Positions 21,245-64,000 of a stretch of 64,000 nucleotides of DNA are shown here, piece after piece. Made by a program: the position numbers and the translations under genes. How positions within the stretch are numbered: the first letter of the stretch is position 1; the number at the start of each line of letters is the position of its first letter. Source of the stretch: Alitta virens. Taxonomy: Eukaryota > Annelida > Polychaeta > Phyllodocida > Nereididae. Below the pieces are notes generated by a model. It was not told where the DNA came from. It did no database searches and was given only the letters and a program-made list of their open reading frames with translations. The stretch is taken from contig OW028574.1 in assembly GCA_932294295.1 (NCBI GenBank), forward strand, positions 53,814,797 through 53,878,796, given 5' to 3'.

Positions 21245-21815
21245 AAAAACAAAAGTGCAAGACCAATCACAATCAAAGGAGGATTTAAAATCAAATGATG
21301 TTGATATCAACAGTGGCTACTGCGATACAAAAATCTCAATTCATGTTACTGATGAAAATGATGTAGAAAGTGAGAGAGATTCCGAAACGAATGCTGCTAG
21401 GCTGGCTCAGAGGCGGTCGAAAGGTCGCTCGAACAGTTTACCCAATGGTATTTTAAGGAATCACTTGAAACCATTCATAGCGCTATCCAATATTTCTGAA
21501 GATGAGGACTCTGATTATGTCGGAGGTCGTAGAGGACGTCGAGTGTCATTCTCTGTTCCAACAGACTCTGAAAATAACTCCGTGAAAGATGACAAGAGTA
21601 CAGCAAAAGATTCTACCGGACTGTCTAAGTTACAAGTGCAGGTAGACAGAGATCCTCTACCCACAGGATCAAATGTCTTTCAACAGGTCATGGCTGAGGT
21701 TGGCCCTCCGAAGGACTCTACAGTTGCTACTCCCCCACCAGGCAAATACGAAAAAGTGAAAACTCTCCACATCACCAAGAAGGACAAAAAACGAAACAAT
21801 ACTGCCTATAGCTGA
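21245..21815 (+). CDS. Terminal exon of an unidentified gene; PP1-docking protein (SILK + RVxF motifs)
   Basis: The frame is open from 21201 to the TAG-type stop near 21815, with no in-frame ATG before about residue 150. It is therefore read as a last exon entered by splicing, best at an AG at 21243-21244; the upstream exons were not found. Counting from the codon at 21255, the ~186 residues are hydrophilic and probably disordered. They hold a 14-3-3 mode-1-like RSNSLP (58-63), a GILR (65-68) that fits the PP1 SILK consensus [GS]IL[RK], and RVSF (96-99), a canonical RVxF PP1 site preceded by basic residues. An acidic SEDEDSD stretch lies between the two. SILK placed N-terminal to RVxF is the arrangement seen in known PP1 regulators. 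The gene family is unrecognised; PP1 binding is inferred. Confidence 0.6.
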
Positions 21816-24186: not shown

Positions 24187-27100
24187 TTACTCTGACATAT
24201 ATAATATCCTTCTGGATTTCTTGGGAATCTTTCCTAAGATCTCAGCAGGTTTGGTGCTTCCGAAAAGAATGGTTGAAATGCTTTCATTAGAGACTGGTTG
24301 GTGATCATTCTCTTCATTAATTGGTTCCTCATCTGGTTCTCCAGCCACAAGTCCACGAAGATTGTCAAAGAAATGATCTACGACTTGGTGATCTTCAGGA
24401 ATTATGCTATCATCCCCTTTGACTGCCTCCATGTAATTGCACAAGAGTGTGATGAAGAGATTAACCATCAGATAGATCATGGTACACAAGTAAACGATGA
24501 GATACACTTGTCCTGGTAGACCGATGGCTCGACGAATTGATTGGTAGTCAAAGTTGCCCAAGAAATTAGAACACAGTGCAATTGCAGTGTTTTTGATGCT
24601 GCCATATTTTATATATCTAGATCCAAATGCAAGATGGCCAAGTGAAAGGAACGCTGCATATACCACGAAGACAAGGAATCCCATTCCCAACAAATCGGAT
24701 GCGGACTGAGCCACGGTCGCTGACAAGATGGCAATTGTTTTGTTGTATCGGAGGATATGCAAGAACTGAAGCATTACTAAGAATGTTGCCAAACCCAGGA
24801 ATGTCAGGAAGATGTTGTCCGAAGTTGTGACGATTTGGAAGTTGGCTACCTCACCTGAAACAAAGGTGCCAAATTATCACGATATACCCTCAGGTTATGT
24901 CAATGGCATATATACATTTTAACGACATTTAGAGGTCACAAAAGACCTATTTTTAGATTGATCATGGTTTTTTGCATATATTGACACCTTTTGATTAAAT
25001 TCCAGCCAATATAAGATATAAAACTAAAATTTACCAGAAACTTATGCAGGAAACTCAAATGAAGTGTAATGACACTGTTATTATGCAAAGTTCCTTGTGC
25101 ACCAATTATGTATAATGATGATAAAGATAGTGGCATGGCAATCATATTTATTTTGTTTTATGATTTATACACCGTTATTGTGAAGTTTATAATGGGCCAT
25201 TCAAGGCAATTAAATTATGAGTAACAATTACTTCGTAATAAAAATACTCACCCCAATGATGCATCATATATTCCACACTTTTCACTGTCCAAACAGATCT
25301 GTATGCATAGATTGACAAGGCTATTATGAAGAATGAGGATGACACAAGGATGGTCCAATTCCAGAGACTTTTGAACCATGAGCATTTGTGTTGTATGATA
25401 TCCAGAATCAGATATACGGTCATCACCAAAAAAACCAAAGTGCACAGAATTTCTGTCACGATTGCGATCACTCCAGCACCGCCATTGTACCGGTATAGTT
25501 TAACTGACCGGATATCAGTCCAAAAATGGGTTTCTCCGGTCGGGGGAAGTTCAAAGGATATGATGACCTGAGTGAACAGTCCGCTTTGCATGTTGAACAC
25601 ATTAAACTCAGCGAATATGACTCTGGTGTACTGGTCAATCCATCGGGATGAGTTTAAGCCATCTAGAATTTCCAGCGCTTCTGGTTTGGTCAAACCAAGG
25701 TTAGCAACATAACCACCTCCGTCGTAAGTCGTTAGAAAACCCCAGAATGGTAAACCTCTCAGCTGAGATGATGTGTTGTACATGAATGCCTTTTCTAGGT
25801 TAGTAAGCTTCTCTCCTGTGCTTTGACCTTCTGAGATTGGTATCCACCCTAAACTGTGATTCCTTGTTTCATGAGTGCTTTTTTGTGTTGGGCTGTAACT
25901 ATATGTGCACCTCTTCGTGGCCATATCTGTTGGTTCTGGGATTTCACAGGTCTCTGAAAAAGATTCAAGGCTTCCAAATCAACTCAGTGTCAACAATCTT
26001 GCAAAGTTGTGGTGCTCACTATGAGACAGTCAAAGGGATAGGCCAATTCCAGAAAACATGAGCGTTTGTGCTGTACGATTAGAATCAGATAGGCAACAAA
26101 AAGACCAGGGAATTTCTGTCACAATTTTAAGTAATGTAGTAAAATTACCTCACGTTTTACATGGCAACTCACCCAGCCAGTGTCTGTTTAAAGCTAAATT
26201 AAGGGCAAAGCTGTGGGTTTCTCATGATATGTCCCTATCAAACCATTGCTGTACTGGTAGTATTATAGTTATATAACAAAGAGATCATCTATTGCAATAG
26301 TTTAAGATATTTGACATCATCCACTGCAATAACTTCTTCCTAAGCTATTTTACTGTACCAACTGTAATTAAATGTTAGTAAAAGTCATTCCTGATCAATA
26401 TATACTATATATATGAGAGTATTTAAATATGTAATGGAATGACTTTAGAAATTAATGAGTAGATGGTTGATGTTTACCATTCTTCACCCTCAGTTGTCTA
26501 AGTCTTGGAGGCCCTAGCCTCATTGCATAAGTGTTAGCAATAAACTTTTGATCATAAGCTGAAACTAGTTTCCCATTGTAGTCTTTGTAATAATAAACTG
26601 CATCTACAAAGTCTTTCTTAAGCCATGCATGTAACTCTGATATTCGGTGAATCTGCAAATGGAGATCAAATCAAATTTTGAACAGGTATCAATATTGTGA
26701 AACAAATCTGGGTGATTTATCACACCACATTTGTGATGTATAAAAGTACATAACACCTGATATAAACAAGCTCTTTGACTCATATTGCTTAAAAATCAGT
26801 CATTTCAGCATTTTCATAATTCACAGATTATTTAAAAGTTTAATTAAAGGTGACAAATATGAAAAAACTTAACATCAAAATTGTCCGATAACCAAGAAAA
26901 ATCGATGCGTCTGACTAAATGGCGTTAGCTGATTCTAGATTTCAAACCACAATTTGTCTAGTACGTTAACATTTTTATAGTTATGCACTGATTAGTTTGT
27001 CCACATTTGGAACACCGCGTTTCTTGTGGTATCAAAATAGTAGTTAACTGGTGTATATATGGAGGTGGTGTTACTTCTAGATATTTTCCCATTCGATTCT

Positions 27101-27881
27101 TCAGGTCTGTGTTTTGGAGGTAGACATCTGAATCTTGGTTGCCATATGCTATGATGAGTAGCATGAGCAAAAACAAGCCTTGCAGGAAGATCTCTCTTAT
27201 CATATTACTGATCTTCTTGTCCATCTTCTTCTTCTTCTTTGCTTCTTCTATTTCATTTGTATTGACATCTGTGTGAACTAAATCTGTAAATGTAACCTCA
27301 TACATGAATTACTGTGGTGATTTGGGAAAATTGAAACTTGCTATTTACTGCTCCTAAGGGATAAATTTTGAATATAATACCACTACGATTGCTGAAATTT
27401 CTTGGGTGGGTTATAAACAAGTTTATCAAAATGTGTTTGCTTTTATAAATTCAGACAGCGCTAAAAAGTCATCACTTACAGTCATGATTTGAACTTGTAA
27501 TTAATTCTTAGGAGAAAAAAGTCAAATGGATGCATTTCAATTGAATGACATATAAACCTCAAGTTCAGAGAGACATCATGTTTTGTTTCCAGTGATGATG
27601 ATAGTACGTTAAATTTACATAGTGGTTAAAATATATTGGCTTACATTTGAACTGCATTAGAAAAGAAAGTCAACTAAATACCAGAAATGGAATATGCTTG
27701 GGTTGAATTGAATACAAATGACTTAGATCAGCCTTAAGACGAACATTTTTGAATGAATGAATTTACCTGGATTGGAAAAGATGTCAAACCAGTTTTGTTG
27801 TTGACCATAACTATCTTCATACTCTGACACATCAGTGTCCTTTTTGAATAGGAAAGACAGCAGTGCGGATATTAAAAGGAC
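24187..27881 (-). other. Polycystin exons 27767-27881, 27075-27283, 26478-26652, 25252-25953, 24187-24854: TOP domain, channel helices, C-tail
   Basis: After segment 6 (FLQGLFLLMLLIIAYG) comes the extracellular TOP domain: IHRISELHAWL, GLPFWGFLTTYDGGGYVANLG, WIDQYTRVIFAEFNVFN. Segments 7-11 follow, ending with LLGMGFLVFVVYAAFLSLGH, a pore loop and GQVYLIVYLCTMIYLMVNLFITLL. The pore reads SNFLGNFDYQSI (LGN at 24553-24561), aligning with LGD of polycystin-2. The C-tail after the last helix is short (about 80 residues) and no coiled coil is evident, unlike human PKD1. Basic KKSRR lies near the end. Confidence 0.93.
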
Positions 27882-30800
27882 CTGCAATAATGAATAATGA
27901 ATGCAATTGTCTTCAGCCAGTCGTTCCTCTTGTTACATAATACAATGAGATACTCTAATTTGATGTTGAGTAACTTCTGGCATTAGTTTGCGTAATTACC
28001 TTCACTGGCTGAATCACCATGACCGATTCAAAGAAGGACAAGAAGAACGCAGTCAGCCATGCTCGTGACTTCTCGCCACCCCAGTCAAGAGCGTAGAAAA
28101 TAGTGAACAACGCCGATGCAAGGACTGCGATAACAACCAAGAACCACCCAAATCCAATGCACCAGTGGGGTAAGGGATACTTTTTCTTCTCTCCTTCTGG
28201 AGTCGGTGGTGTTATGATCTTGTATTGCTCTTTTGCTTTATCGTCGCCCGGTTTCCTTCGTTTGGTGTAATATGCCTCATCGGATGTTTCAATGAAAGTC
28301 TTGATCTTACGAGGAAGTGGCATTGATTTTGTGAAGAATATTGTTATTAAGAGGATTGGTGGTATGACAATCAAGCTCGCAAGAATGCTGTTAGTCAATT
28401 CCTTCATGGTTATTGTTATCGGTCCTATGGTGAAGAGCCCTCCTGTTGTTCCACCTTCAGCAGCTTCTTCAGGACCAGTGTACCACATGGCATTAGTTAT
28501 CATTGTCAAATATAAGATCGCTAAGCAGACAGATATTCTTTGAGCCCTTGTGAAGACTGACGGGGTGTTTCGGAATGCAACAGACAGCCAAATATGGTCA
28601 TCAAACATCTTCCTATTCAGATTATTACGAAGCAGGACTCCAGTGTTGGAACTACTACCAAAGGTGGATACTGTCAACACCCTCTCTGTCTTTCTGTCCC
28701 CTCTTGTTTTGTCAAGCCATTTGTTGTTATGAAACACCCACCTGTAATCAGAAAAAAAAGCATATATGTTGTTCATGGTCTTTACAGCACACAAATTTGT
28801 GAAGCACTGCTATCTGGCCCACTGTACTAAATAGATGGCAAATTTTCTAGTAGTGCAAGGAGTATAGATATGTTGCAGTGGTAAATCGTCGTCTAAGGCT
28901 ATAATTCGATTTGAATTAGTATTTCATCTCTTGTATGTGGCTTTCCAGTAATTAAGAAGACCTTAAATTTTTCACATGTCACAAAATATTTCATTCTGAT
29001 TTGTGTGAATAGATATAACTTCTTACCAATGGTTTCGCTGAAGGTCAATTATAACGACTTTGTCCAGGAACCAACCACAGTCATTTCCTTCTCCAGATCC
29101 ATCATGCCAAATTCTTATGGACATTAGTTCTCCAAGATCATGCTTGGTGTTTAGCAGGAAAAAATTTATATCGCCTCGTCCGAAGTTCTGTCAAATAATA
29201 TATATGTATTAATAATACAACAGCGAGAATACAGTTTGATCCTTACATCAGCCAGATTTCTTAAATTACAAATTCAAGTTATGATGCATTGTTCGCGAAA
29301 CATTCGCAACCAACCTTATATATTAAAGTGGCATTGCAATACATTTTTGAAATACATGTACCTTTCGATTTCCATCATCCATCTGCCTTATCCCTGTGTC
29401 AGCATTAGATCCACATAAGATGAAGTAAACTTTGGAGTTAGTCTGTGAATGTCTCTTGATCCCAGTGTACACATGAATCTCATATCGGTGTGGAGCTGAT
29501 GCCATATTGGCTACCAGGGGTAAAGTTGTCCACTAGAATAATAAAATGAAGCATATTAAGTAATTCAGCAACCCAGAAAACATCCATTTTTGCCCAGCGT
29601 TATTTTATTCTGTTATCTTTAATATTGTCTCATTAACATGCAAAACCATCTGCTGGTATCTGCCTGAGAGCAATTCATGACCTGGGGACCAATTAATAAA
29701 GCGCCTTATTAAATTGAGACTGCATTTTTTTTTTGTAAAAGAACAAGAATAACTGTTGTGATTAAAAGTATTGTAACACTAAAATGGCATCACTTAATGA
29801 TTTGAGAGATTTATTGTTAGCTAGTGTTTGTCCAATTTGGGATGGTCCCTGCCTGTCCTAATTAGCCCATCAGTTGCAAAAATACAGGACGTATAGCCCT
29901 AATCACTAACTCACTTGTCCAATTTGGCATGCTGTCAGGGTTAAGAATCAGCAGATGAGCTTTTGATTTTTGAATATTTTATGTAGCATGCAACTTATAG
30001 CGAGCTAAATTCATTATTACTATACAGCATGTTGGCTGAGAGTATTATGGTTGATTTATTACTGACTCGAGCAGCATCTTGCTTGTCCAGCATCCTGCAG
30101 TAGATGAGCAAAGGGATGTAGAGTAGAATGAATCCAATAACTGTAGCAACAACTGGCATGTTTTCAATGAGTTTGGCTCCAAAGTTATCGAACAAGTTAC
30201 TGAAGTCAATTGTGTTAGGTCCTGAAAACATTCCGGCTCCCAGACTCCCAAAAAGATTACTCTTGAAGCGAATTCTGTCTGGTGTGGAGTCCTCTTCAAC
30301 CTGGGAAGCAGGAAATTTTGTCGCTATTTTAAATAATTCGATATCATTCTATATCTGTCGTTACTGTCCTACAAACCCTTCCCTCTGATTCAAAGACATT
30401 AAGTGTTGACATGTAATTATAGACACTTTGAAAAACAAGTTATAGCAGGTTAGAAAGAAATGTCAGTTGAGAATTAGCTGGCCTGAACCGTAAGGGGAAC
30501 TGAAGCGCACCTCTAACCCTTAGCCACCCAAGTGGATATCAAATCCTTTCTGAAATGCATGTGTTGTCAGGGTGATACAGATTTTTCAAGTCACGTGCAT
30601 GTGGTTTTTACCAGGACAGAATGGTAAACAACCAAATTGATATATAATATAAAAGACATGTAATTTAAGGGTGTTGCAACAAATGCACAAACCTCTGCTA
30701 TATGTTCCTCCCAAATTTCATTTTCTTCATCCCACTTTTGGATCTTGATCTCTGCTATTCTCACCCTGTAATAAACGCCTGGTCCTCCTTTGCATTCTGT

Positions 30801-33800
30801 ACCTTCGTAACAGCCTGGACAAGAATTACGAAATCTCTAGTTCAGGATGCTATATGAGTTTAATGTGAGAGAGCATTGACTAATTAACTTGATGAGTGAC
30901 GCTTAATGTGTTGGCTAGAAATCTTTGTGAAATACATTTTAGATTTAGATCAATTTATTTTCATAATTGACATTAAAGGTATATATCAAATTATATTAAT
31001 GAAATGAGAAGATGCAATTATGATGGAGACCCCTCAAGCTAGCAAGCTAAGAGGTGCCACCAATGAAATGAGAGATGAGATGAGTGACATGGAATGGAGG
31101 AAATGTTAGTACATACTTCTGAAGCGGACTCCAACGATCAATGTCCGATTGCCATCATCCGTGTTTGTCTCATTGGAGAAAGGAGTGGTATGGTTATCGA
31201 AGACACTTTGTGTGGTGACTTCTTTAGTTGTCGTCTCTACAGGAGTGGTTGTAGGTGATGCTGTTGTTGTGTCGGGTGCTGTCGACGTTGTCGTTGCATT
31301 AATTGTTCCATTAATGTCTTCGTCAAGAGAGTCGAAGTTAATGACTGATCGAGTGTACTGGTCCAATGAACCATTAAGAGCCATTTCGAGCTGTAGAGCT
31401 GAGAGTGTCACCGTGTATGCAGCTTCTGGTAAGGTAAAGTTCTCATCATATGTGGCATTTTCGATGTTGACATACTGACTTGCAGGAAAGGTATAATTCC
31501 AGGAGTAATTGCTAGGGGTTGGATTCTCATTGACTGCGGCAAACACCTCTAAGATCTCGAATTCCCTTGGGTATATGTTGATCTGAATTGGTCTGGCTGG
31601 TTTGCTGATAGTAATCTTGTGGTACACCAAGCCTGCAGCTCTTGGCTTGTCGATGACTTGCGGCTCGGGCAAATTCTTTGGTGCTAACGACACCACAAAC
31701 GGTGAAGCTGGTTTAATGGACTTGGACAGTGGTCCTACGCTTCTCTTTTTTCTGCTTCCACCAACTTGCGTTTCCACCACACATTTCTGCACTCTCATAT
31801 CCAGCACACTGCTTTCCACCCCTGTGTCAGTTTGGTTTCCATAGATGAATGGGTTGATATCCATGAAAATCATCTAAAATGTGAATGAAAACGAACCAAG
31901 TACCATGATTATCATGGTCAAAAAATATGGCCAACAGCAATAACTGCTGGGATGTTCTTAGTAATTATCTATGAAATTAAGTTCACCCCAATAAGATGCA
32001 TGAAAATTTATTATATAACCAGTTTGATCCTTATCTGAAGCTTTCAATGATTACAAAATTTAAAAACCATCCCACCAAATATTAATATTTTGATGACTAT
32101 TAATTAGAATAGTACCTACAATTTTCATATTCTGTATATACTATACTGACCTTGTATTCCACACAACCAACATCTTGTCCAAACAATGTTCTCCCAGGGG
32201 GCAACTCAGCTCCACCTTGTTTGTTATCGATAATATTTGAAGACTTCAAAAGTTTGTCATCCATAGTTTGAACCATCGCAGTGATTTCTGGTTTCGACAT
32301 AACACGATCTGGATCTCCTGGTTCCATGTCTTCAGAAACGATATCCAGAATGCTATGGCAGTTGTCTATGCCTTGTCGCATCACATTAGCAGCCTAGCCA
32401 AATTTAAACCGCAAGAAATAGAATTAAGTGGAAACTTATTTAAGTCTCAGTAATTTATATTTCTTAATGTCACTGTTTAATAACTAGGGTTGAACTTTGC
32501 ATTTGAAAAATGTTGTCTGACAAATTGTTCCAATCTTAAAGTTTTAGAATCTTTTTATGCATCTTATCTGTATTTGCACTTTCCAGGCCCATAAAATGAT
32601 TATAAGAAAACTAAAACTAAACTAAAAAATACTACACCTTTCGTTTGATTTCTTCTAGTTCTGAGAGAGTTTCGTTTATGTAACCTAGTGTTGTCTGAAA
32701 TTACAAAGGACTCATAAAGCCATAATACAATAATTATTCATTGAGTGGACAGGAAATCAAATGCATATTGGTCATCAACTCTTTATTCACTCACTGCATG
32801 TAATGGACTGGCAGTTGTCGCCAATTCATCTGTGCCATTCTGGAATTAAATCAAAACAGCTTTGAAGAAAATAAAAATTCAGTGGGAGTACAATGTAACT
32901 AGTCTGCACATAAAAAGGTCAGGAAATGGCGAAATGCAACTTACTGTCTTTTTGTTTGCTTCATTATAAAAGTAGTCAGAGGCAATCATACAGGTCAGTG
33001 TGCTTCCAATCAGATCTAAAATTTAAATCAAAATACAACAATACTACTTCCAAATGTATATTAACATTGTAATTCTAGGAGCATATTTGCTTTATCTACA
33101 GTGCCACAAAGTGTTTTGAAGGAAATGTGTAGTTGTAAGTGGTAGAAGTTAAAAAACTCTTTTATGTCAATGAAGTAAAAATCCAGCATCAATATATTTA
33201 TATGATGTATTTAGTGCTGGCTATCCTGGTTGTTCCAACACTTTGGGGGCACTGCATGTTTGTGTTGCCATATCGGATAAAGCTACATCTATATTTCATT
33301 GCTTACCACTTGCCATTAATGTGGGGTTTTCAACACTTCCATTGTGTTTGAAGTCCCTGAATGTGCCTGTAAGGTTTCCCAGCCTGTTGGTCCCAATTTC
33401 CTGTGTATATTGATGAAATGTCATAACATGAGCACACTATAACAAAACATATGCGATGATTAATATTATCAACCAGTGACACTAGTAATTTATGCACACC
33501 CTGTTGTACTGTTTACATAATGATGAAGAAAAAAACCAACGCCTAACGAGAAGTGTAAACCTAATCAGAGGCACGATCCGTCATCTCACAAGACAGATAT
33601 CCTTGGTGTATTACTGCACCTATTTCCATAATCAAAGTTCAGTATGTTTAATAGATAGATAGATAATACTTCATTTCCAAATGTTGGAATTCTTTGTGCA
33701 TTTCAAATACAGAAAAAGATCATACACACTGAGACGCACACAAACATATGTATCACAGAGAAACATGAGCATACGTGTCACAGACATACCTACAAAAGGC

Positions 33801-54800: not shown

Positions 54801-57800
54801 ATCATATGTTCCTGGAAATATCTGTTATAAAAAACATTTCTGTTAAAGTTTTATTTCTACAAACAATTAAGAACACTCAAATCTTTTTTCCTTTTTCTTT
54901 TTAGTATATTGTACTTTTATTTACTTGAGTTGCTGAGCTTCCAAATTTGATGTAGGGAGTCCAACCAGGTGAAGAGTCATTTTTGTAGAGGAGAAAGAAT
55001 TGTGTGATGGAACCATCTTCAGAGGTCCCAGGTCCTTGGATTATAAATTCATTAACATGCACAGGTGAGCTGAAGGATATCTGGAAGTAAATTTGGATTA
55101 AAGTTGCGAAAACGACAAATCATTACTGATATCATTTACCATGTTATCCATTCTACTGGTGAACAAGGCTGTGTGAACAGAAGTTAAACCTTATAATCAA
55201 TTCCAGAATCTTGTATTTTAGTTCAAATAGTTTTTAGCATAATCATAAAGTTTAACTTACTGGCTGCTGCAAATGTAAGAACAAAATGTTCTGCAGTTTT
55301 TAAGAGTGAAATATTTTTTAAGGAGCTGTGTCAAGAATTGGTAATTTAAGTGGTTTCTTCGTTAAACTTGTCCTAAAATGAGATGTGTACGAGAGTTTGG
55401 TATGACTGACAGCAAGTCTGCTTATTTTACTTTTCAATATTTGTCATCATTTTGAGGATACCTGGACCCATTCTCTGAGTGGTATGTCATAAGCTGATGC
55501 TTTCCATCCTGGCTTGCTGTCCAGTAATGAGTTAGAAATTGACCACCCTGGTTCACTGCTGTAAGAGGTCACTGTTGGGCGATGAGTGGAAGCTAGGGCA
55601 GTCCTCAGGGAGGTGCTACAGTTAACAGCTGAATAAAAGATGATAAATAATTCATAATAATAACTGCTAAGACTAAAATTACAAAGGAGTGAGTTTCTAC
55701 CCAGTTAAATATACCCTCTGTAGGAAGTGTGGTACTCTCCAACATAGTAGACCACCTATTAGACCAGTTTCATATGCAGACCCTCTCCTGCTAGGTGGCA
55801 CTGAGGGTCTGCCAGATTTCCGATGGAGCAACGATCCTGGTGGGGGAGCAAGGAATTTGACTGTATTTCAGCTTATTTTAATTATAAGAACAAAATTACA
55901 CTTCACTTTAACATGATGATTTAGGGAACTATACTCTGTTTGCCGCTACGTTGAAATCCTTGGGCGCAGTAATTGTATCGAAATAACATAGTATAACATA
56001 AGACAGTAAACTTTGATACAATTGAACACCAAAAAAAAATTGTCACTTCTTCGAAAACCACTCACCTCTACAAAACGTCTCGTAATGCACAAATCCAGAT
56101 GCATAGGTGAGGTTTGCTTGTGTGCTGTTTGCGTAGTAGCACAAACAAGACTTATTATTCAGAGAAAAGTCGACTGACATGTCATTTGTAGGAAGAAGCA
56201 GACGACAACGTTCTAAGCACGTGCCCAGATCACGTGCGTCTGAGATGTTGGTGTATACTTCCAACTGTATTCGAACATTTGGTCTAGCAGTCCAAGTCTG
56301 TTGGCAGTCTGATAGTTCATCTGCGCTGACTGAAAATAGGAATGTTAATAATCTGATGTTTTTAAGCTTTGATTGTAAAGAAAGACGAAACCTAATTTAA
56401 ATTCAGGACGACAATTGAAAATGGTCCGAGAGGCAAAATTTGGTAAAGTTAATTTCAACAATCTGCGCATGTCCATCTACGATCAAGAAAATCATCAATC
56501 ATCCAAAGAAAGTTATTATAATGGTATCTGAACGCTTAATGTACTTTAATCATAAAGTTTAACTTCTTACTGGCTGCTGGAGTGATACAACCGCCAATGT
56601 AGCTATAATCTGAAGTACAAGGAACTGCTCGGTAGGTGGCGTCACTGAGCAAAGCAGCACAAGTTCCACCGGAAACGGAAGTGGTTGACCAGTCAATGGA
56701 AGTAGCTGGGGTTCCATCCGACCACTTCCAAACTCCACTGATTTTCTCAAGGCCAATGAAACTTTGTGGTGCCCTGAAGTTTACGAAATATATTAATATA
56801 TTGACATGACTGCAAATACATATTCATATGTATACACATTTTAGAGGTTTTTTTCCCCCTTTTAATCCTTTGTCAACAAATCATTTGTATACTCCATTTC
56901 CAGTAAGCTAGCCATAAATAAATGTTTTAAAGAATTGTCATTTCCAAATGCTTTAAGGATACAGGTCAAACATACATGGCCATTTCTCAAGTGACCTTTT
57001 CTATTGCTCTTAGGAGTGATATAAGTTCATATAACAAACAGTGGCATTGCTGTGCTATTCTTGCATTTTAAATATAACTAAGTTATATCCCTCGCTGGGA
57101 GTTATCAACATTTCGTTGTTGAAATAGCTCCATGAAAGTTTTAGTAAACTCCCTCCTACATGGGATACAGCGACACATCTAACTAAAAGATGCTAACCTG
57201 GCCACGTAAAACTTTCTGAATTGGTTCATCCTGGCTGATGTTGAAATGGTAGGTTGTAAAGTTTTCCCAGACCATTGAATATTTGAACAAGCTTCGTTCA
57301 TATACCAAGCCATTGTTGGAGATGGATGGATGTAGAAACAGGAGCCTTGGTCTTCTATCATACCAGTTGGACATCCTTGAATAGAAAATATCCAGGATGA
57401 AGCTTTTTGTTTTTGTGAATGCTAAGTACAGCTTCCTTTTGAAAATGACGTACATTGAAAACATTATGGTGAAGAAAATGTCCCTATAGCTTCCTAGATT
57501 ATGTCACATCAACCCAGGCTGAGGGTGGGGGCCTAGCTCTGTGGTAGCGCTGGGCTTCCAACACTGGGTCCTGGGTTCTATTCCCGTTCGAGCCTCAGTT
57601 GGATGGCTGTATCATCCATCATCTCATTGCAATGGTCCCTGCCTGTCCTAATTATTCCATCAGGTGTAGAAATACAGGAGGTAAAGCCCTAATCCAGCCC
57701 ATTCACTCAATGCTGGGCCAATCTGGCATTCTATCCTGGATGTCAAATTAGGTCAACATCCATTGGCCATAATCTCCATGGGCGGCCCTAGCTTTTGCTT

Positions 57801-60619
57801 TAAGGTGTGGTTTTGCAGCATGCCATTGCATTAATTTGCGAATTTCTCGCTGTATATTAGGGCCTACTGATTGTTTTGTGTGAAAATTATTTTTGCTTCT
57901 GTTATTGTGATGTATGCCTACAAAATATATCAATATCAATTCCAATGCCAAGCCACACTGAGCCAATATGGCATGTAATCGGAGTTAACGAAGAGGACTA
58001 AGATCTTAAAGGTCCATTTTGATGGCTTCTGATATGGCTGAGTTCTCCTAGCACTTTTTAAAATCTAAATGGTTAATCAGCCTTATTGAGTATGTCCAGT
58101 ACTCCATAACTGGTATGTCATGTATGCCAATACATCTGACTTCTTAAGTAGAAGGCATTTCATCAAAAATGACGTGCAAAAACGTCCAACCTGTAAGATG
58201 CTATATTGGGGTTGGAAGGATGATTTTAGTTAGACATGTTTTATTTCTATGATATCATATAGAGTGCTGCTAATGACAATAATTAACAATGAGAAAAACA
58301 GGTCGTATTACTTGATGCAACTTTCCCATGTAGATCTATTCCCGCACAAACTGATTCATTGACCGAGGGCAGCTCAATCAGTAACTTCAATGCTCGAATG
58401 TGGGGTGCAAACTTGATCTCCGTCTTGTTGTCCATGAATGTAAAGATCTGAAACAAAGTGTAGGCGTCCACAGTACTCCACTTGGTATGAATTTCACATG
58501 CACTGGAAGTTTACTTGATGTTATTTTTATCATTTTTCAATCAGTTGATCATCTGTACCATATCCCAAATCTATACAGTATGGAAAAAGCTTTGGCTGAA
58601 CCATCGGAATTGGAAGATTTTACTGATACAATTCTTCACATACAACCATCATCGCCTATTATCCCTATTATACAGGGTCTGCATGTGTATTGTGCATGCA
58701 AATGACATCAGTAAATATTATAGATAACATTTCTCAACATGTAAGCAATACATGTCCAAAATCTCAAGAAACGCCCTTAACAACTTGGCTTTCATATATT
58801 TATTGTGAGAAATAACACTGACTGAAAAAACTTACCTGGGAATGCAATACTTCAATGAAAGGACTTTGAGTGCCACTAGTCGCATAGCTTATTTTAATGT
58901 TATATTCGTCAATATCTTTTGACAGATATAGTACTAGTTGAGTTATGTAGTGCAACATTTTGAGGTCAATGAGGACAGACTTCTGTGAAGTGTGACAAAT
59001 TCCATTGCAACCATTTTGAGAATGTTGCAAGGCACAACCTCCTGTCTCCTCAACCAGTGCACCTGCATCTAATCTGGGCAAGTCTGAAAAAATGGAAGGG
59101 AAAATATACATAGTATTATAATATCGGTAGATTCAATGCTGCTCTGCCCTTGAAGGTCCTGGGCCTCCACGCGGCGAGGGTGGAAACACTTGGTGTGAAG
59201 TCCTCTATCCCCAGTGGCTAAAACAGGACAGTGCACATTGCACAAGCTGCTCCAGCTATCCAACGCAGACACTTATTGATTTTTTACATGCTTCTGGTTT
59301 CTACTACCAACTATAGATAATCACTTTTACCCTAGGGAGCCTCTACATAGCCCACTCAGGTGCTGATGAGGCGTTAAACAATAACACTACCTACCTACCT
59401 AGATTCAATGCTGAAAAAGAGGAATAGTGCATGTGTGTATGTGGGAAATATGTTAAGAGACCACTACAATTACCAGATAGGTGAATTTACAATTAACTAA
59501 TCCAGAGTGTGCCAATTAATTAACCTATGAAAGACTGTCATTGTAAGAAAGCTTTGAGCACTAAATTCTTTATCAAAATATACATGCATGTGTGCAATAC
59601 TAACTCAACATAAATGGAAATTATTCACACCTTCAGGATAACCTTGGAGTTCGAATCGCAACGCAGCAGACGAGTTGAATTTCACAGGCAATATTCTGAT
59701 TGCCCTGGAAGTCACTTCTGGATCAATGTCAATCTTCATAGGCCACAGTCTGTTGAAATTCCCCTGGTAAACCTGAATGGTAATAATTGTGAAAAAAGGC
59801 ATGTGTGGATGCAATTTGTACTGGTCCTTATGGTGAGATGAGTGGTGATTTGACACCGGTGGTGAGTTAACTAGATACCGTTATAACTAAGCAATAAATT
59901 ATGTTGAAAGTTCAGTAGGCTTCAAAACTCAATGGTGAGATTCTGCTGTTAACGTTTTTAATGGGACACATTCCTACCTTTACTGTACTGTTAGGCCAAG
60001 TGTGGGGAGACCAATTCCATGTGTCATTTGACATCTCAATGGAAAACTCCTGAACTGACAAGGCCTCTGTGGCTGATCCTTGAATAATTATGCCATGGAT
60101 ATGATGGATGATGTACAGGTCAACCTGGTACCACATTTCAGGGTCATCAGCATTCCAAGCTCCTGGAAGCCCATCACCTCCACTGTAAAAGATCCTCCCA
60201 GCATGTGGTTGACCTATCACATTTGTTGGCGGCTGTTTCAGTTGGTTTACTCCAATGAAGCCTGACCTCATTCCAAGTTCTGCTTCCTTCTGGTCACCTA
60301 AAAAAAATGTACATAAAATTCTCTAAAGAAGCGGTATATATGTTTATTATTGCAGTTGGGCCAATATAATGCATGGGTGGGCTCCACCTCTCTCGCTCCT
60401 CATCAATCAACCCTCGATAGTGGCAATAACTTGACTTATAGGAATGCCCTTTCCGTCTATCTATTTATCTATCTACCTGACCAGCTTATAATGAGACCAA
60501 GTTATGAACACTCTGGCAGCCCCACGTTGTCTCCAATTATTTAAACTGCCCATACCACTCTTTATGACGAGGCCTGTGTCATAACTGTCATACCAAATCT
60601 TGTATCTCATTTTTGGCTA

Positions 60620-60673
<54 letters not shown>

Positions 60674-63600
60674 ATTGACATGATATCATCATAATTGATA
60701 CATGGGTCAAACATACAAATAACATACAGTAATAATATACAATAATACAGTACTTTTACAGTAATAAGAAAATAATACTAAAAGTGTTAAGCTAACAGTC
60801 TATATTAAATGTTGTAACTATGTATTTTACAGCAAGTTGGTCCCGGTTGTGACTAGTAAAAATACTAATAATACAAATAAAAAAAAACAGACAAATATAT
60901 ACTGCTTGTCCCAGTGGTTTAACCAATCTGGCTATCCATGTATGGTTTATAAATAATAGTATGCGGAGCCCAGGGAAAGAAAACAAAAAAAAAAACTAAA
61001 ATAAATAAATTTATAGGACAGGGTTTAGAATTATGCCAAGAGCATTAATTACACCTGCTTATATAGAGAATATAAAGAACATTTGCATTTTCAAGTTAAA
61101 CATACAAATTATTCACATGTATGAACATGATTTTGTATGATCTCAAGCAAGTGTGAAATACATGTATTATATACTTGATAGGTTTTGGGCTAATAAAATG
61201 AAATTATAACCTCGACACTCTGTTGTCTCTGTGTCATACACACCTTCAGCGAAAGGTAACAACAATTCTGCCAGCTGTAGTGCACCACTGTTGTGGGCTC
61301 CAATCTTGTATTTTGCAAAACTCGGGTCTCCTTTTTTGGATATGAAAACCAGGGCTTCTCCGTTGCCAAAGGAATTGACATTCACTCCCAAGGCACTCAA
61401 TGATGTACGGTAAGTGGATTTGTGGTCATCGAAGTCTGAGGATGTTGCTCCTATAGCTATTGTGCCTATAAAATGAATTAAAACATCAACAGTCATACGA
61501 GCAAAACTATTCAGGTGATATCACAAATGCCTACCTTCCTTCTAAAAGAAGGTTGGTGTGAGATCATGTAAAGCCCTAGCATACTCTGGTACTGGATACT
61601 ATAATAAGTATATCTGCTATTTGCAGTACACTGCTTCACATCCTCCAGGCCTCCACCTTACATCCAATTGCACTGACTTGGAAACTAATCTCATAGACTT
61701 GGGAGCTAAACACAAGAGAACGTCATGCAAGTCCAATTGAAATTGTGCACAGAGTCAGAACATGACATCACTTTAGGTCTTGTCTGCTAATTCTTTTGTA
61801 CTCTTTGAATTGCTTACCAAGTTTCTCATAAAACTTGGAAACTGTAAACAATCAAACAGATAACACCTGTATACAATAAAACAATCTAACAAAGCAAAAT
61901 TTTTACAGCATGACCAACAAACCTGCACTGAGACTGTTTAAGTAATTGTCAAACCCAACAGCCCCTGAAGAATCGGATGCAAACTTCCTGGAGTTCATCA
62001 TTGTACACCCTTGGTCAGTCATAATCAAAGTGGCCAGTGTAATGCCTGAAGGAAGTGACCAAGATTCTGCAGAGTGACCATTGACTGCCACTAAAGATGT
62101 TTGATCATCCGGATTTCCAAAACCAATCAACTCCACTGCACAACCTGGGGATAGAGACAGTGTTTAAAGCTGTATATGTTATGGCAATTATGACAATATT
62201 TTTGCTTTAGTATTTAAGAATTGTAAGTCAGTGACTAGGTTCTTAAAGTGTTCTTAAGGTATTGGTGGCCATTTTGATATGATATTGAGGACCTACAATT
62301 TACAATATAGTTTGAAACAGCTGGAATTCAGCAGGCCAAAATGTCAACATACATTACCAAGGTTAGAGGATCAAAATCAACTTTAGCTATTGTCTGTTTG
62401 AAATTTTGATACCGTCTAATGCAAAATGCCTTTTGGTGTCTTCATTTCTTAAAATATCAATTGGCTATTATTAATAGACATGGCTGTTGTCCATTTACTT
62501 ATGAATATTTGACAATTTTCAGAAAGGTTGACACCCTCAAAGACAAATGTGTATGAGGAGAGGTACAAGAGATGATTTATTTTTCAAATGATTTATTCAT
62601 TAATTGTTAAATTTTATCGACCCAAGAAACGTTATCCTGCATGGGACAAACTTTTAAAGTCATGATCACACAAACTTTTCGTAGCATATTGATACATATA
62701 TCTTATATACACATATTCACTCACCCTTGTCGAATGGTAGACCAGAGCCACACCCATATATTTCAAACCTCATGCAACAAGATACTTCACACTCTGTGGG
62801 TTCAATCCTCACAAATCGGGCTGAGATTTTTGGTCGAAACCAGTGCATCATTAGGTCATCCCGGTTAGCATTTCCCTCAAATATCTGGAATATTTTAGAC
62901 ATGGTTGGTATATGGTGTGCAATGAGGAAGTGTTGCAAACAACCAGATTCACTAAAGATGTCTTCAATGTGAGTCCTAAGTTACGTGAAAGACCCGACGC
63001 TCTCATGGAAATGTGAGAGCGCAGTTGTTTGCTTCCGTGTGCGTACGCCATCTTGGTAAATTTCACCGGTTACTTTCAGGATACTCTACCAGTTTTGACA
63101 AATAACATGAGATATATTTTGCCTTTGATGATAATCGGTACAGTAAATAGAAAATATTTCATCTATGGTGAGGTTCTATTGTAGGCCTATGTTGGTTCAA
63201 CATTCAGTAGCTCCTCAAGGCTAGATTCGACTCCTGCATATCTTAAGAACTACGGGAAGATATAAGAACTATGCCCACCCCTATACAAGCTCATCATTAA
63301 GACCAACAATTTTGCCGAATTATTGGTTTAAATGGTGAAGTGGTACCATTGTGCCAGTGTAACTTGGTTTAAGAGAACCAGTTAACTTTTAATGCTTAAG
63401 TGTGCTTAATAGTGTAGTTGTCTTAAGGGGGAGTTGCACCTATATGTCCTCACAGCCTTAGGGCAAATTGATCTTGTATCAGAGTGGTCGATTCTTGTGT
63501 GTAGAAATACCATACATCTGAGAATATGTTATTGATGATGTGTTCTATATTTACTTATTTGTGAATATACTTCAGTAATGACCCCTCTGGTCGTGCAAAC

Positions 63601-63995
63601 AAAGTAATGGACAATATTCAGAAAACGTTTACTCTATGCTCTTGAGCGTTGGAGTGGATTATGTGAATGATGATTGGTATTTGTATTGCATATGTAGTTG
63701 TTGATTGTGCTCACATACTGGCATGATTAGGCATATCAATACTTTCGTGATGCCATAATGGAAGACCAAAATACACATCATTAAACTATCGACCGTGATC
63801 TGTTTGATTGGATCTATTACTGGAATGATATATATATTTGTATACCCTTTGTCTGCCCCATTGATCTAGTATTGGTGTCCAGTAAATACTGTTGTTGCTG
63901 ATCAATAACTTGAACTTCTTGACGAAGCAGTTTTCTGTAAGCGAGCTTCCTTGTGTGACGATTCTGTTGATGTTCGTGACACGCCTCAAATCAGT
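24187..63995 (-). CDS. Giant polycystin-1-family receptor/channel with lectin-type ectodomain (57 exons; N-terminus beyond right edge)
   Basis: I join 57 exons into one gene of about 5,270 residues in the window; the exon list is divided among the domain entries below. Reasons for one gene: the reading frame and exon phases run unbroken from 63995 to the stop at 24187, all 17 junctions between ectodomain modules are phase 1, and I see no stop, signal peptide or polyA site between modules. The C-terminal half (PKD repeats, REJ, GAIN-like region, PLAT, TOP domain, 11 membrane segments) is the polycystin-1/PKDREJ family core. The N-terminal half is built of carbohydrate-binding and adhesion modules not found in vertebrate PKD1. 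Vertebrate PKD1 also has a C-type lectin and PKD repeats, and sea urchin sperm REJ proteins combine lectin, EGF and REJ domains. Likely a plasma or ciliary membrane receptor that joins ligand recognition to a channel subunit. The chance that the 5' part belongs to a separate gene is small but needs RNA data. Confidence 0.85.
28000..29532 (-). other. Polycystin exons 29362-29532, 29027-29187, 28000-28741: PLAT domain and membrane segments 2-5
   Basis: RYEIHVYTG opens the PLAT/LH2 fold, with NFGRGDINFFLL, LMSIRIWHDGSG...GWFLDKVVI and NHWWVFHNNKWL as in other polycystins. Four hydrophobic segments follow (CLAILYLTMITNAMWY, SLIVIPPILLITIFF, WFLVVIAVLASALFTIFYAL, and FLSFFESVMVIQPV running into the next exon). 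PLAT domains bind lipids or proteins on the cytoplasmic side. Confidence 0.93.
29838..29925 (+). repeat. Tail fragment of tRNA-derived SINE family
   Basis: Matches the 3' half of the copy at 57528-57740: GGTCCCTGCCTGTCCTAATTA, a CAG...GCA/GCAA..AATACAGGACGTA step and AGCCCTAATCAC. Confidence 0.7.
30067..30300 (-). other. Polycystin exon 30067-30300: degenerate GPS and first membrane segment
   Basis: Family members usually read C-x-CNHLTSFG before the first helix, with cleavage at HL|T/S. This exon reads FKSNLFGSLGAG (NLF codons 30250-30258): no cysteine, no His, no cleavable Thr/Ser. PNTIDFSNLFDNF, normal for polycystins after the GPS, follows. The helix VVATVIGFILLYIPLLIYC is membrane segment 1. 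Confidence 0.85.
30693..34183 (-). other. Polycystin exons 34127-34183 to 30693-30814: GAIN-like region with mucin-like stretch and furin-type site
   Basis: Exons 34127-34183, 33896-34027, 33307-33400, 32945-33015, 32795-32839, 32638-32694, 32151-32393, 31117-31873, 30693-30814 form the helical then beta parts that precede the first membrane segment in adhesion-type receptors and polycystins. Exon 31117-31873 has an RKKR furin-type motif (31742-31753) and a Thr-rich O-glycosylation-like run. The last exon carries KWDEENEIW, the relic of the GPS start. Confidence 0.75.
34406..34715. mobile_element. MITE-like element with TIRs, ~310 bp, in a polycystin intron
   Basis: The ends form an inverted repeat AAAGGGGCGTTCACA...TGTGAACGCCCCTTT, which extends with gaps for ~45 bp (TGTCACGT..., AGACCTAC...). 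The TIR start resembles that of the PIF/Harbinger-like element at 20022 (AGGGGGTTTCACAC). No clean target duplication remains (CAA versus TTA). Confidence 0.7.
36636..36720 (-). repeat. Reverse-oriented SINE family fragment
   Basis: The reverse complement reads GGATAAAACAGC...-type family sequence: TATTTCTGCACC..GTGGGCT, CAATGAG-C-AAGGATAAAACAGC are the opposite strand of the copies at 37318 and 52214. Confidence 0.65.
37318..38000 (+). repeat. SINE copy split by a nested insertion (37434-37960)
   Basis: The head 37318-37433 matches other copies up to GTGCAGAAATA. The missing tail (CAGGATGTAAAGCCCCAATCAC) resumes at ~37965. The inserted 0.5 kb starts with (GACA)n at 37434-37452 and is followed by AAAATATTTATTTT, which in reverse looks like a retroelement 3' end with AATAAA and a simple-repeat tail. 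AATA flanks both sides as a possible target duplication. Confidence 0.65.
38648..41495 (-). other. Polycystin exon 38648-41495 (2,848 nt): PKD repeats and start of REJ domain
   Basis: One long exon without introns. At least four PKD (Ig-like) repeats can be seen, for example WDWIGG...HSYHDFGNYTM, VIYDIDFGDGEF...YQLIGNYTINVTAWN and FLWDMGDN...YETWGVFTVTVFAFN. Many N-x-S/T sites occur. The last ~300 residues begin the REJ module (CLVPNI..., FTWTCERVNG, FHFTVTVRKDTR). PKD repeats are mechanically strong beta modules in polycystin-1. Large unsplit exons are also seen in vertebrate PKD1. Confidence 0.93.
41779..43829 (-). other. Polycystin exons 43377-43829, 42689-43129, 41779-42234: three tandem ~150-residue Cys-containing beta repeats
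   Basis: Each repeat is one exon of 441-456 nt between phase-1 introns. Each has a long beta-strand-like stretch and then a common tail: C-x(4-6)-(Y/H/F)-x-C-(V/F/L)-L-like, an N- or D-rich turn, a C (SCFDL, QCYLL, ICLNA) and a last C (NCNPG, DCEPG, NCEG). I do not recognise the domain; an Ig- or cadherin-like fold is possible. The third copy contains RRKR at 42023-42034. Confidence 0.7.
43182..43385. repeat. 68-bp tandem repeat, about 3 copies, containing a splice donor
   Basis: The word GATAATGC recurs at 43213, 43281 and 43349, a constant 68-bp step, with high identity between units. Each unit includes, on the minus strand, AATCC(A/G)GGTAAA, which in the innermost copy is the real exon end and 5' splice site (exon ends 43377). 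The other two are intronic copies of that donor. Confidence 0.85.
44078..44224 (-). other. Polycystin exon 44078-44224: EGF-like module
   Basis: Six cysteines in about 45 residues (DQCGWNKECTEEYSECIP...FTCQCRYYYKD...QCVPC), one exon between phase-1 introns. It separates the lectin-type half from the repeat/PKD half. Confidence 0.6.
44597..45201 (-). other. Polycystin exons 44989-45201 and 44597-44824: fucolectin-like (FTP) F5/8C domain
   Basis: Begins INLASNRKTW, with AVDGK, a DPWFLVDLKRQYEVTQVRLLN core and a LTLCEISVHSD end, which are the landmarks of eel-fucolectin/tachylectin-4 domains. The fucose-binding residues were not checked. Confidence 0.8.
45585..46541 (-). other. Polycystin exons 46107-46541 and 45585-45758: fibrinogen-related domain
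   Basis: WTVIMRHETPSFAF...W--Y--GFG, then YYIGN, LLRIDFYATDGRFY, FSTYDNDNSNNNCA and GGWWYNDNPNCM make a complete C-terminal fibrinogen fold. The DND calcium loop and the Cys pair around it are kept. Ficolin- and tachylectin-type members of the family recognise acetylated sugars. Confidence 0.88.
46811..48470 (-). other. Polycystin exons 48304-48470, 47794-47814, 47552-47704, 46811-46955: F5/8C domain 7 with a 21-nt microexon
   Basis: Four exons form one discoidin domain: GYWTPFW | FYGGYLE | VRTAVPMTVTRLLMIGTT... | ...KYFRFTVEDF...VQFELFGC. The second exon is only 21 nt, in frame, with good GT..AG borders. Without it the first strand of the fold would be cut. Confidence 0.75.
48668..48830. 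repeat. Intronic dispersed repeat, copy 1
   Basis: Shares TTATCTGTTTGATTGTTTA, ATTCTTTTGTACTCTT and GCAGACAAGACATGAAGTGATGTCAT-type ends with 61766-61868, partly in opposite orientation. A palindromic centre (AAGTTTTCCATGAAACTTGG) suggests a MITE. Confidence 0.55.
49120..49380 (-). other. Polycystin exon 49120-49380: PAN/apple domain 2
   Basis: One exon between phase-1 introns, with TTECLQACVDGKF, SCISVIYMKHNNTCWLI and GYDYWEV, a clear PAN/apple signature. It sits directly after lectin domain 2, as in the first copy. Confidence 0.75.
49475..49528 (+). repeat. 31-bp direct repeat, two copies
   Basis: CCGTTACAACGCTTGTTCAG plus TGC occurs at 49475 and 49506. It lies in the intron between PAN domain 2 and lectin domain 2. 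Confidence 0.8.
49645..50010. repeat. GC-rich insert ending in a long hairpin
   Basis: From ~49660 the base composition rises, with a small stem GCCGGTGC-TTT-GCACCGG near 49762-49780. At 49878-50008 two ~55-bp arms are inverted copies of each other (AGAGCAGAGAGAGCTGCTCC...GACGTCATGTGAATG and its reverse complement) around a ~17-bp loop. Repetitive origin is likely; open frames crossing it are not credible genes. Confidence 0.6.
50014..50220. mobile_element. Hairpin MITE-like element, ~75-bp inverted arms
   Basis: Begins TGTTTCAGACAA and ends TTGTCTGAAACA, with the arms matching through TGGTGTCCATC and AAATCAGCCAAGATAT. It directly adjoins the hairpin at 49878-50008. No target duplication is clear. 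Confidence 0.7.
50754..50874. mobile_element. 121-bp palindromic MITE-like element
   Basis: Starts ACCCAGATAGCATTCCAAAT and ends with its reverse complement ATTTGGAATGCTATCTGGGT; flanks are AT-rich (TTATA and AATAA). Confidence 0.75.
50921..51072. mobile_element. 152-bp palindromic MITE-like element
   Basis: ACATGGCCAA at the left is matched by TTGGCCATGT at the right, and the arms share GTGCCACGTG and GTTTTCCATGCG words in reverse complement. It lies 46 bp from the previous palindrome. Confidence 0.7.
51579..52126 (-). other. Polycystin exons 51816-52126 and 51579-51705: divergent F5/8C-like domain 6
   Basis: A Ser/Thr-rich opening leads to SLTLDLASVYYIYQIGVSG and MRYLKLSVTPV, a weak discoidin pattern. 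It has two exons, like domain 3, and sits in the same place in the duplicated block. Confidence 0.55.
52210..52345 (+). repeat. SINE family copy in intron of F5/8C domain 5/6
   Basis: Reads GTCGAGCCTAAGTTGGATGG, TCATCCTTCGTCTCATTGCC, AATTAGCCCAACTGATGCAG, then AGGACGTAAAGCCCTAATCAC and a (CA)n tail, the full 3' portion of the family. Confidence 0.8.
53075..53360 (+). repeat. Dispersed repeat with 'GGATTTGGATGAAATTTG' core
   Basis: Contains AGGATATCTCAAAAAGTTATG, GGATGGATTTGGATGAAATT and repeated GGATC(C/T)GGA words, a composition unlike the rest of the intron. I recognise it as interspersed-repeat type but cannot name the family. Confidence 0.45.
53420..53935. repeat. Degenerate TTGGCC-rich tandem/palindromic repeat, ~0.5 kb
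   Basis: Words such as TTGGGCCAAC, TTAGGCCAAC, TGTTGGCCAA and GGGCCAACTTTGAGTTA recur every 20-60 bp with much variation. Three of the longer units contain CAACTTTGAGTT and a (C/G)GCCATCG(G/T) word, suggesting an older ~100-120-bp unit. Confidence 0.6.
54656..55628 (-). other. Polycystin exons 55462-55628, 54925-55080, 54656-54821: F5/8C domain 4
   Basis: Three exons, with GWKASAYDIPLREWVQ, then VHVNEFIIQGPGTSEDGS, then TFRLVPN and a RIDLGGCP end. It occupies the place after the lectin-PAN pair, like domain 7 in the second copy. Confidence 0.8.
55750..55870. repeat. Dispersed repeat also found at 35081-35165
   Basis: AGACCCTCTCCTGC, GAGGGTCT and GGAGCAACGATCCTGGTGGGGGAGCAA-type words are shared with 35081-35165. 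Both are intronic and unrelated to the flanking exons. Confidence 0.5.
56066..56329 (-). other. Polycystin exon 56066-56329: PAN/apple-like domain 1
   Basis: A single exon bounded by phase-1 introns. Cysteines follow the apple pattern: CLERCR in the middle, SCLCYY after it, and a closing FCR. PAN/apple domains mediate protein or glycan contacts. A WSC domain was considered but the Y-GC-Y start is missing. Confidence 0.6.
56571..57375 (-). other. Polycystin exons 57198-57375 and 56571-56773: C-type lectin domain 1
   Basis: Starts RCPTGMIEDQGSCFYI and continues to FIGLEK-SGVWKWSDGTP and a late C...C pair, the long-form CTLD pattern. The EPN/QPD and WND calcium-sugar motifs are absent, so classical calcium-dependent sugar binding is unlikely. 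The inner intron is phase 2, as in lectin domain 2. Confidence 0.85.
57528..57740 (+). repeat. Most complete copy of a tRNA-derived SINE family
   Basis: The head has a tRNA A-box-like CTAGCTCTGTGGTAGCGC and a B box GGGTTCTATTCCCG about 35 bp later, as in Pol III promoters. A unique body (GTTGGATGGCTG, CATCTCATTGCAATGGTCCC) and a tail (AATACAGGAGGTAAAGCCCT) follow. Fragments at 29838, 36636, 37318 and 52210 share the body and tail. Confidence 0.8.
58312..59083 (-). other. Polycystin exons 58836-59083 and 58312-58447: divergent F5/8C-like domain 3
   Basis: Two exons with a galactose-binding-like pattern (VLIDLKMLHYITQLVLYLS, then a second exon ending ...LLIELPSV). It lacks the LGM start and final GC. 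Its two-exon structure matches domain 6 in the second copy of the block. Confidence 0.55.
59130..59405 (+). repeat. Probable second SINE-type repeat ending GGCGTTAAACAATAAC(ACCT)n
   Basis: A GC-richer segment ends TCAGGTGCTGATGAGGCGTT, AAACAATAAC and a (CCTA)n run. The ending with a short simple repeat is SINE- or LINE-like. No A/B boxes were recognised. Confidence 0.4.
59631..60297 (-). other. Polycystin exons 59978-60297 and 59631-59772: F5/8C domain 2
   Basis: A textbook discoidin domain: LGMRSGFIGVNQLK start, GAWNADDPEMWYQVDL core with IIIQGSATE, and a RAIRILPV...ALRFELQGY end. The intron found after WFQ in the related domain 5 is absent here, because WYQVDL is read through. Confidence 0.9.
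60626..60668. repeat. (TA)n microsatellite
   Basis: About 21 TA units in an unbroken run, followed by ATTTTATTGACATGA, which could be a retroelement 3' end in reverse. Confidence 0.9.
61211..62144 (-). other. Polycystin exons 61923-62144 and 61211-61465: ILEI/FAM3-type (GG) domain
   Basis: A ~150-residue domain: a VELIGFGNP start, DQGC...R-FD-like strand, then LSAGTIAIGATSSDFDDH and a second half with LSALGV, FGNGEALVFISKKGD. This is the pattern of ILEI domains known from FAM3 cytokines and from large extracellular proteins such as PKHD1L1 relatives. Glycan binding is suspected for the family. Assigned from pattern memory, so moderately sure. Confidence 0.65.
61766..61868. repeat. Intronic dispersed repeat, copy 2
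   Basis: Partner of 48668-48830: CATCACTTTAGGTCTTGTCT, GCTAATTCTTTTGTACTCTT and CAATCAAACAGATAAC are shared, some in reverse complement. It lies in the intron of the ILEI domain region. Confidence 0.55.
62725..63995 (-). other. Polycystin exons 63846-63995 and 62725-62884: F5/8C (discoidin) domain 1, partial
   Basis: The exons give the later two thirds of a discoidin fold: a DL-RV-I-I-TQG strand pair, then ARFVRIEP and a closing C-C-MRFEIYGC, the usual end of F5/8C domains. The first third lies off the window. F5/8C domains bind glycans or phospholipids. Confidence 0.8.
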
Positions 63996-64000
63996 CTGAA

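Follow-up and report, generated by a model that had tools for sequence, protein, structure and literature searches.

A probable polycystin-1-family channel subunit with a stack of adhesive modules in the annelid Alitta virens

The sea-urchin REJ proteins and the ascidian s-Themis receptors are the nearest described relatives of the gene reported here, which lies on the minus strand of a 64,000-nt stretch of the Alitta virens genome (GenBank assembly GCA_932294295.1, contig OW028574.1, positions 53,814,797 to 53,878,796; "the window" hereafter) and most likely specifies a channel subunit of the PKD1 family whose adhesive ectodomain is shuffled. The features of the PKD1 family that it presents are 11 transmembrane (TM) segments with a polycystin channel region, a PLAT/LH2 domain after TM1, a REJ domain and PKD repeats. 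Published work is cited by PubMed Central (PMC) number, for those portions of each text that were available.

Described relatives of the Alitta protein

The sea-urchin REJ family (SpREJ1-10) combines C-type lectin, PKD, REJ and PLAT domains with one to 11 TM segments; SpREJ1 has one EGF module, and SpREJ10, like the Alitta protein, is without a GPS (PMC1934368). The lectin types named in the available text are C-type and SUEL, and the words "fibrinogen" and "discoidin" do not occur in it (PMC1934368), whereas the ectodomain described below has some 15 modules. In Ciona, s-Themis-B is likewise a PKD1-like receptor with REJ, LH2 and a PKD channel, paired with fibrinogen-like recognition; however, the fibrinogen-like v-Themis-B is a separate gene nested on the opposite strand, while in Alitta the corresponding module sits in the same chain, and the ascidian receptor includes a GPS and a hypervariable region, where the GPS is decayed here (PMC7018956). 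Because a REJ-PKD channel is paired there with fibrinogen-like recognition, the s-/v-Themis system offers the closest functional picture; genetically, it is defined by the nested opposite-strand gene, which occupies the first intron, and by allelic hypervariability.

Human PKD1 shares PKD repeats, REJ, PLAT, 11 TM segments, the polycystin (TOP) domain and a C-type lectin with the Alitta protein, but it also carries LRR, WSC and a working GPS; Pfam found neither LRR nor WSC in that part of the protein which lies in the window, and the membrane part is nearer to PKD2L1. For human PKD1L1 and PKDREJ, we know of no description of a large module stack. Both resemble the Alitta protein as 11-TM members that lack the HL[ST] tripeptide of the GPS (PMC9672506), so that, with SpREJ10 taken into account, GPS loss is not unique and the GPS does not define the wider family. 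The skeletal REJ protein of the coral Acropora is another multi-pass membrane protein outside vertebrates, with WSC, PKD, REJ and PLAT; its GPS is conserved, and the available text makes no mention of a lectin stack (PMC4890752). A polycystin that unites fibrinogen-related, ILEI and several discoidin domains was not found described among the titles, abstract openings and passages listed in searches of an open-access library, but automatic gene models of a similar kind may well exist in the sequence databases.

A single exon chain from the module stack to the channel

A hand-curated gene-finder model joins 57 exons in consistent phases from 63998 down to 24187 (15,795 nt; 5264 amino acids), and its sole stop codon is the terminal one at 24187-24189. 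The chain is still open at 63998; the start of the gene and the N-terminus therefore lie beyond the window. The finder works by dynamic programming and was trained on the long open frames of the window itself; since it imposes GT-AG borders and a stop-free interior, neither of these counts as independent evidence for the model. With three intron penalties, the same finder returned 73, 59 or 57 exons. A loose model of 141 exons, in which introns were filled with tiny exons, was discarded. In curating the 59-exon model, we removed 59399-59410, 49686-50003 and 36807-36854 as unsupported, added the small module at 44078-44224 and, within 51.2-51.7 kb, moved a border in each of two exons. This was not done blind: an initial annotation, made from the sequence alone, had already counted 57 phase-consistent exons, with which the curated model agrees. 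The first Pfam run preceded curation; its first piece still held a later-removed 4-residue exon and its REJ piece a later-removed 16-residue exon, and the exon-31 module was absent.

The evidence for the chain comes from a finder test of the ectodomain half (41.5-64 kb), in which codon scores were taken from the polycystin half only (24187-41495), while the splice scores drew on this half together with a generic prior. A score of 393.1 was obtained with 36 exons, against 50.9 for the opposite strand; 20 dinucleotide shuffles gave at most 27.8 (mean 12.2). The frame chosen was the best of three for 33 of 34 ectodomain exons, although the finder's preference for stop-free frames contributed to this count. 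Furthermore, Pfam runs on the joined protein show that known domains continue across exon joins. As far as the window shows, the gene is intact. That it might be a pseudogene or an assembly chimera, for which no sign was found, is extremely unlikely: the 15.8-kb coding chain can be read without stop or frameshift, which the finder imposes, yet the shuffles give nothing similar, and the window (37% GC) contains no N.

We consider that this is very probably a single gene. In the alternative account, two adjacent genes, one for a lectin protein (secreted or in the membrane) and one for an ordinary polycystin, would have been fused by the gene model at 41.5-45 kb. The join is a prediction of the model; an ATG at 42262, with a hydrophobic stretch that runs straight into the third of three repeats, could be a start, and seven AATAAA/ATTAAA words occur in 41.4-46.6 kb, the one at 44584 directly behind the exon of the last discoidin domain, D8. 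However, the coding exons in 41.5-45 kb lie 164-454 nt apart, compared with a median intron of 383.5 nt (longest, 1,520 nt) in the window part of the gene, and the 3′ end of one gene together with the promoter and signal-peptide exon of the next would hardly fit into the largest gap, 454 nt. All junctions in 41.5-45 kb are in phase one. Five ATG-led hydrophobic candidates occur in 41.5-46.1 kb, of which only that at 42262 is followed by a phase-one donor; its hydrophobic start, however, lies within the polypyrimidine tract that precedes the top-scoring acceptor of the 59-exon model. Two genes are thus very unlikely, and the continuity across 41.5-45 kb claimed by the initial annotation is well supported, though not proven.

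Modules of the predicted protein

From the N-terminal side, the ectodomain stack reads D1, ILEI, D2, D3, C-type lectin 1, PAN 1, D4, D5, D6, C-type lectin 2, PAN 2, D7, fibrinogen-related, D8, EGF/EB-like and three repeats, where D stands for discoidin-type units:

62725-63998, minus: discoidin-type (F5/8) D1, exons 1-2; Pfam F5_F8_type_C 58.1 bits; truncated 5′ at the end of the window
61244-62144, minus: ILEI (FAM3-like) domain, exons 3-4; Pfam ILEI 31.9 bits (cut-off 27), E = 1.9e-7
59631-60297, minus: discoidin D2, exons 5-6; Pfam 52.8 bits
58312-59083, minus: discoidin-like D3, weak, exons 7-8; F5_F8_type_C_2 at E = 0.23 only; two-exon phases equal to those of D6
56571-57375, minus: C-type lectin-like 1, exons 9-10; Pfam Lectin_C 22.6 bits, equal to the cut-off
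56066-56329, minus: PAN/apple-like 1, weak, exon 11; from cysteines, position and pairwise alignment with PAN 2
54656-55628, minus: discoidin D4, exons 12-14; Pfam 47.2 bits
52488-54371, minus: discoidin D5, exons 15-17; Pfam 56.7 bits
51579-52126, minus: discoidin-like D6, sub-threshold, exons 18-19; Pfam 20.9 bits (cut-off 28.2)
50438-51361, minus: C-type lectin-like 2, exons 20-21; C-type lectins in PDB 3.6e-6; Pfam 14.7 bits (cut-off 22.6)
49120-49380, minus: PAN/apple 2, exon 22; Pfam PAN_1 25.6 bits alone (cut-off 21.4), 20.7 in a longer piece
46811-48470, minus: discoidin-like D7, sub-threshold, exons 23-26; Pfam 23.8 bits
45585-46541, minus: fibrinogen-related domain, exons 27-28; Pfam Fibrinogen_C 102 bits, 5e-29
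44597-45201, minus: discoidin/fucolectin-like D8, exons 29-30; Pfam F5_F8_type_C_2 38.9 bits, F5_F8_type_C 33.5 bits
44078-44224, minus: small cysteine-rich EGF/EB-like module, exon 31; Pfam EB at E = 0.034 only; phase 1-1 exon, not in the 59-exon model
41779-43829, minus: three homologous repeats of unassigned family with four invariant cysteines, each on an exon of its own (32-34)
42023-42034, minus: furin-like site RRKR, within a segment inserted into repeat 3

The ILEI and fibrinogen-related domains read by the initial annotation were both recovered with Pfam. Its count of about eight discoidin domains is reached if the fucolectin-like D8 is included: five units pass the Pfam cut-off (D1, D2, D4, D5 and D8), D6 and D7 fall short of it, and D3 has the E value of 0.23 given above. 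In an hhalign comparison with a profile of D1, D2, D4 and D5, D7 obtained a probability of 90.5%, against 0.1% for the three repeats as control. One of the two C-type lectins annotated lies exactly at the cut-off, and the other, below it, is identified by its PDB matches. For lectin 1, the best single-domain lectin in PDB was matched at 2e-5; the value for Ly75 (3.8e-9) combines matches to several lectin domains. As regards the PAN/apple pair, PAN 2 passes on its own and not in the longer piece, whereas PAN 1 has no PAN match in Pfam, and the pair was not within the 28 best of 153 pairs compared; PAN 1 is the weakest assignment of all modules. The EGF of the initial annotation is reduced to the weak EB match.

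The borders between ectodomain units are in phase one in all 18 cases, the pattern of exon shuffling, which suggests from the gene structure that the ectodomain was rebuilt by phase-one exon shuffling. Moreover, the block of four modules that consists of a discoidin, a weak discoidin, a C-type lectin and a PAN domain probably occurs twice by duplication.

EPN/QPD and WND are the classical calcium/sugar motifs of C-type lectins; upon reading the sequence, they are absent from both lectin domains. The nearest solved structures to the fibrinogen-related domain are ficolins (ficolin-1, 3.4e-26), but its calcium loop is two residues shorter than that of ficolin-1, with the aspartates kept in part. 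Discoidin domains frequently bind protein or lipid. Given the absent motifs and the shortened loop, "adhesion" is a safer wording than "glycan sensing": of the multi-ligand glycan sensor coupled to a channel that had been proposed, the joining of adhesion modules to a channel fits the anatomy, while sensing of glycans exceeds the evidence.

The three repeats gave a mean predicted local distance difference test score of 52.3 with AlphaFold run on three rows, and in Foldseek, chains of Ig domains ranked first without any match at E 0.001 or better, which in this model is a hint of an Ig-like fold. At the end of exon 32, a 68-bp unit stands three times in tandem (43181-43384), and its two downstream copies contain donor-like words, CCAGGTAAAACTTG (43313, 43245), beyond the exon's own donor; as 68 is not a multiple of three, use of the first extra donor would shift the frame. 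Intronic sequence at 53300-54060 carries a short repeat with a WPNVG-like translation, including a period-11 array at 53446-53482.

Towards the C-terminus, the stack is followed by PKD repeats, REJ, a GAIN-like region, TM1, PLAT and TM2-11:

38648-41495, minus: PKD repeats and first part of REJ, one 2848-nt exon; Pfam PKD 67.7 bits, 9e-19, four stretches
35712-38263, minus: remainder of REJ, exons 36-38; Pfam REJ 178 bits, 3e-52
31117-34960, minus: GAIN-like region by position (REJ to TM1), exons 39-47; no Pfam match
31753-31742, minus: furin-like site RKKR, in the GAIN-like region
30240-30814, minus: GPS remnant preceding TM1, without HL[ST] and without the core cysteines
30067-30300, minus: TM1, exon 49; by hydropathy
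29027-29532, minus: PLAT/LH2, exons 50-51, after TM1; Pfam PLAT 48.9 bits, 1e-12
24187-28741, minus: TM2-TM11 with polycystin (TOP) domain and channel; Polycystin_dom 137 bits, 7e-40; PKD_channel 88 bits, 9e-25
24544-24561, minus: pore filter LGNFDY, aligned to LGDFDY of PKD2L1

The full PKD-REJ-GAIN-PLAT-11TM order of the initial annotation holds for PKD, REJ, PLAT and the 11 TM segments, whereas the GAIN/GPS stretch is without a Pfam match and its GPS site is degenerate. Beyond residue 4250, hydropathy gave 15 windows, merged by hand to 11 TM clusters; an extra hydrophobic window at residue 3038, within the PKD region, was read as part of the PKD fold. Among solved structures, the membrane part matched PKD2L1 best (3.6e-50), followed by PKD2 and then by PKD1 and PKD1L3. 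A search with the 221-residue channel exon yielded no relative in collections that do not cover animals, namely prokaryotic contigs (89 pattern matches, none confirmed), viral contigs (five, none confirmed) and phages (none). The PKD-repeat region (residues 2463-3420; exon 38648-41495) contains 43 N-glycosylation sequons, against 24 in the 1962-residue lectin stack.

In the 660 residues between REJ and TM1, Pfam found neither GPS nor GAIN. The stretch ahead of TM1 reads IQKWDEENEIWEEHIAEVEEDSTPDRIRFKSNLFGSLGAG; two tryptophans are kept in the spacing pattern of a GPS, but there is no HL[ST], and the only cysteines in residues 4160-4260, at 4167 and 4173, are both upstream of the remnant. With the site decayed, the outer part is probably not freed by PKD1-style self-cleavage. 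The two furin-like sites listed above could be putative substitutes for GPS cleavage, though they are not rare enough for certainty: the chance of two sites in the first 4240 residues, over 2000 shuffles, was P = 0.064 when RX[KR]R was counted and P = 0.021 when four consecutive basic residues were.

The acidic filter residue of the PKD2-type pore (LGD) is replaced in the Alitta protein (LGN). In PKD2L1, it is Asp523 that guards the filter, and the filter of the PKD1L3/PKD2L1 channel is "KDDD" (PMC8357825). By this comparison, the Alitta subunit may assemble with PKD2-type partners and contribute the deviating position. Its S6, as read, carries no positive charge, where three have been noted in S6 of PKD1 (PMC7728438).

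Proposed function and neighbouring sequence

The domain content suggests an adhesive receptor-channel subunit that links contacts outside the cell to ion flow. The module stack would bind molecules of the matrix, the egg coat or a neighbouring cell; the three repeats, the PKD repeats and REJ would form an elastic arm; and a cation pore formed with PKD2-type partners would open upon pull or upon binding of a ligand, the outer part remaining covalently attached unless cut by furin-like proteases. Taken together, one animal gene for an 11-TM polycystin-1-family subunit with an adhesive stack coupled to a channel, inclusive of this mechanism, is the account that we hold to be reasonably probable.

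As to where such a subunit would act, a chemo- or mechanosensor of cilia in epithelium or sensory neurons, anchored by its modules to mucus or matrix, is quite conceivable, if short of probable. LOV-1 of C. elegans works in cilia (PMC9829181), PC-1/PC-2 channels have been recorded from cilia (PMC7728438), and the REJ and PKD array would suit an elastic tether; however, LOV-1 needs an intact GPS for normal ciliary localization (PMC9829181), which the Alitta protein does not have. Rather less likely is a gamete receptor of the REJ/s-Themis kind, on the sperm surface or otherwise reading the egg coat, with a cation channel that would open when this coat is touched. REJ occurs together with C-type lectin modules as in the sea-urchin sperm proteins (PMC1934368), and the PKD1-like s-Themis of Ciona, with REJ, GPS and LH2, to which type B adds a PKD channel, has a fibrinogen-like partner in v-Themis (PMC7018956). 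Against this, the fibrinogen-like module of Alitta is in the same protein and not in a partner, and no intron in the window part exceeds 1,520 nt, which makes a gene nested on the opposite strand unlikely in that part; the expected v-Themis site, the first intron, is beyond the window. By analogy, one may also imagine a covalently tethered channel for self/non-self or gamete recognition, in which the receptor and ligand types of Themis were fused in one chain, the polycystin thus having a fibrinogen-like domain and a duplicated lectin block of its own, GPS self-cleavage was lost and any release would be of the furin type; this we consider improbable.

On the plus strand at 16986-17628, two open frames contain Nab2-type CCCH zinc fingers (Pfam zf-CCCH_2 41.6 bits, and 24.5 just under the cut-off of 25.8), which we take to belong probably to a ZC3H14/Nab2-like gene that converges on the polycystin gene. 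The same finder test on 1-22.5 kb scored 218.6 for the plus strand and 17.0 for the minus strand, and the exon chain on the plus strand is probably another gene. A polar, serine-rich open frame of 204 residues (21201-21812, plus strand), with no Pfam match at E 0.01, may belong to the neighbouring gene as one of its exons.

What the polycystins, as receptor-channels, bind in nature is a matter of continuing debate, and it is in their outer parts that they vary most among animals. An ectodomain apparently rebuilt by phase-one shuffling, in combination with a lost self-cleavage site, would be a natural test of which polycystin parts matter: whether the channel can function without GPS cleavage, and whether any adhesive stack is able to drive it. 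The Alitta protein would moreover unite a fibrinogen-like domain with a polycystin in a single chain, whereas in the self-sterility system of ascidians these two types of module face each other on sperm and egg.
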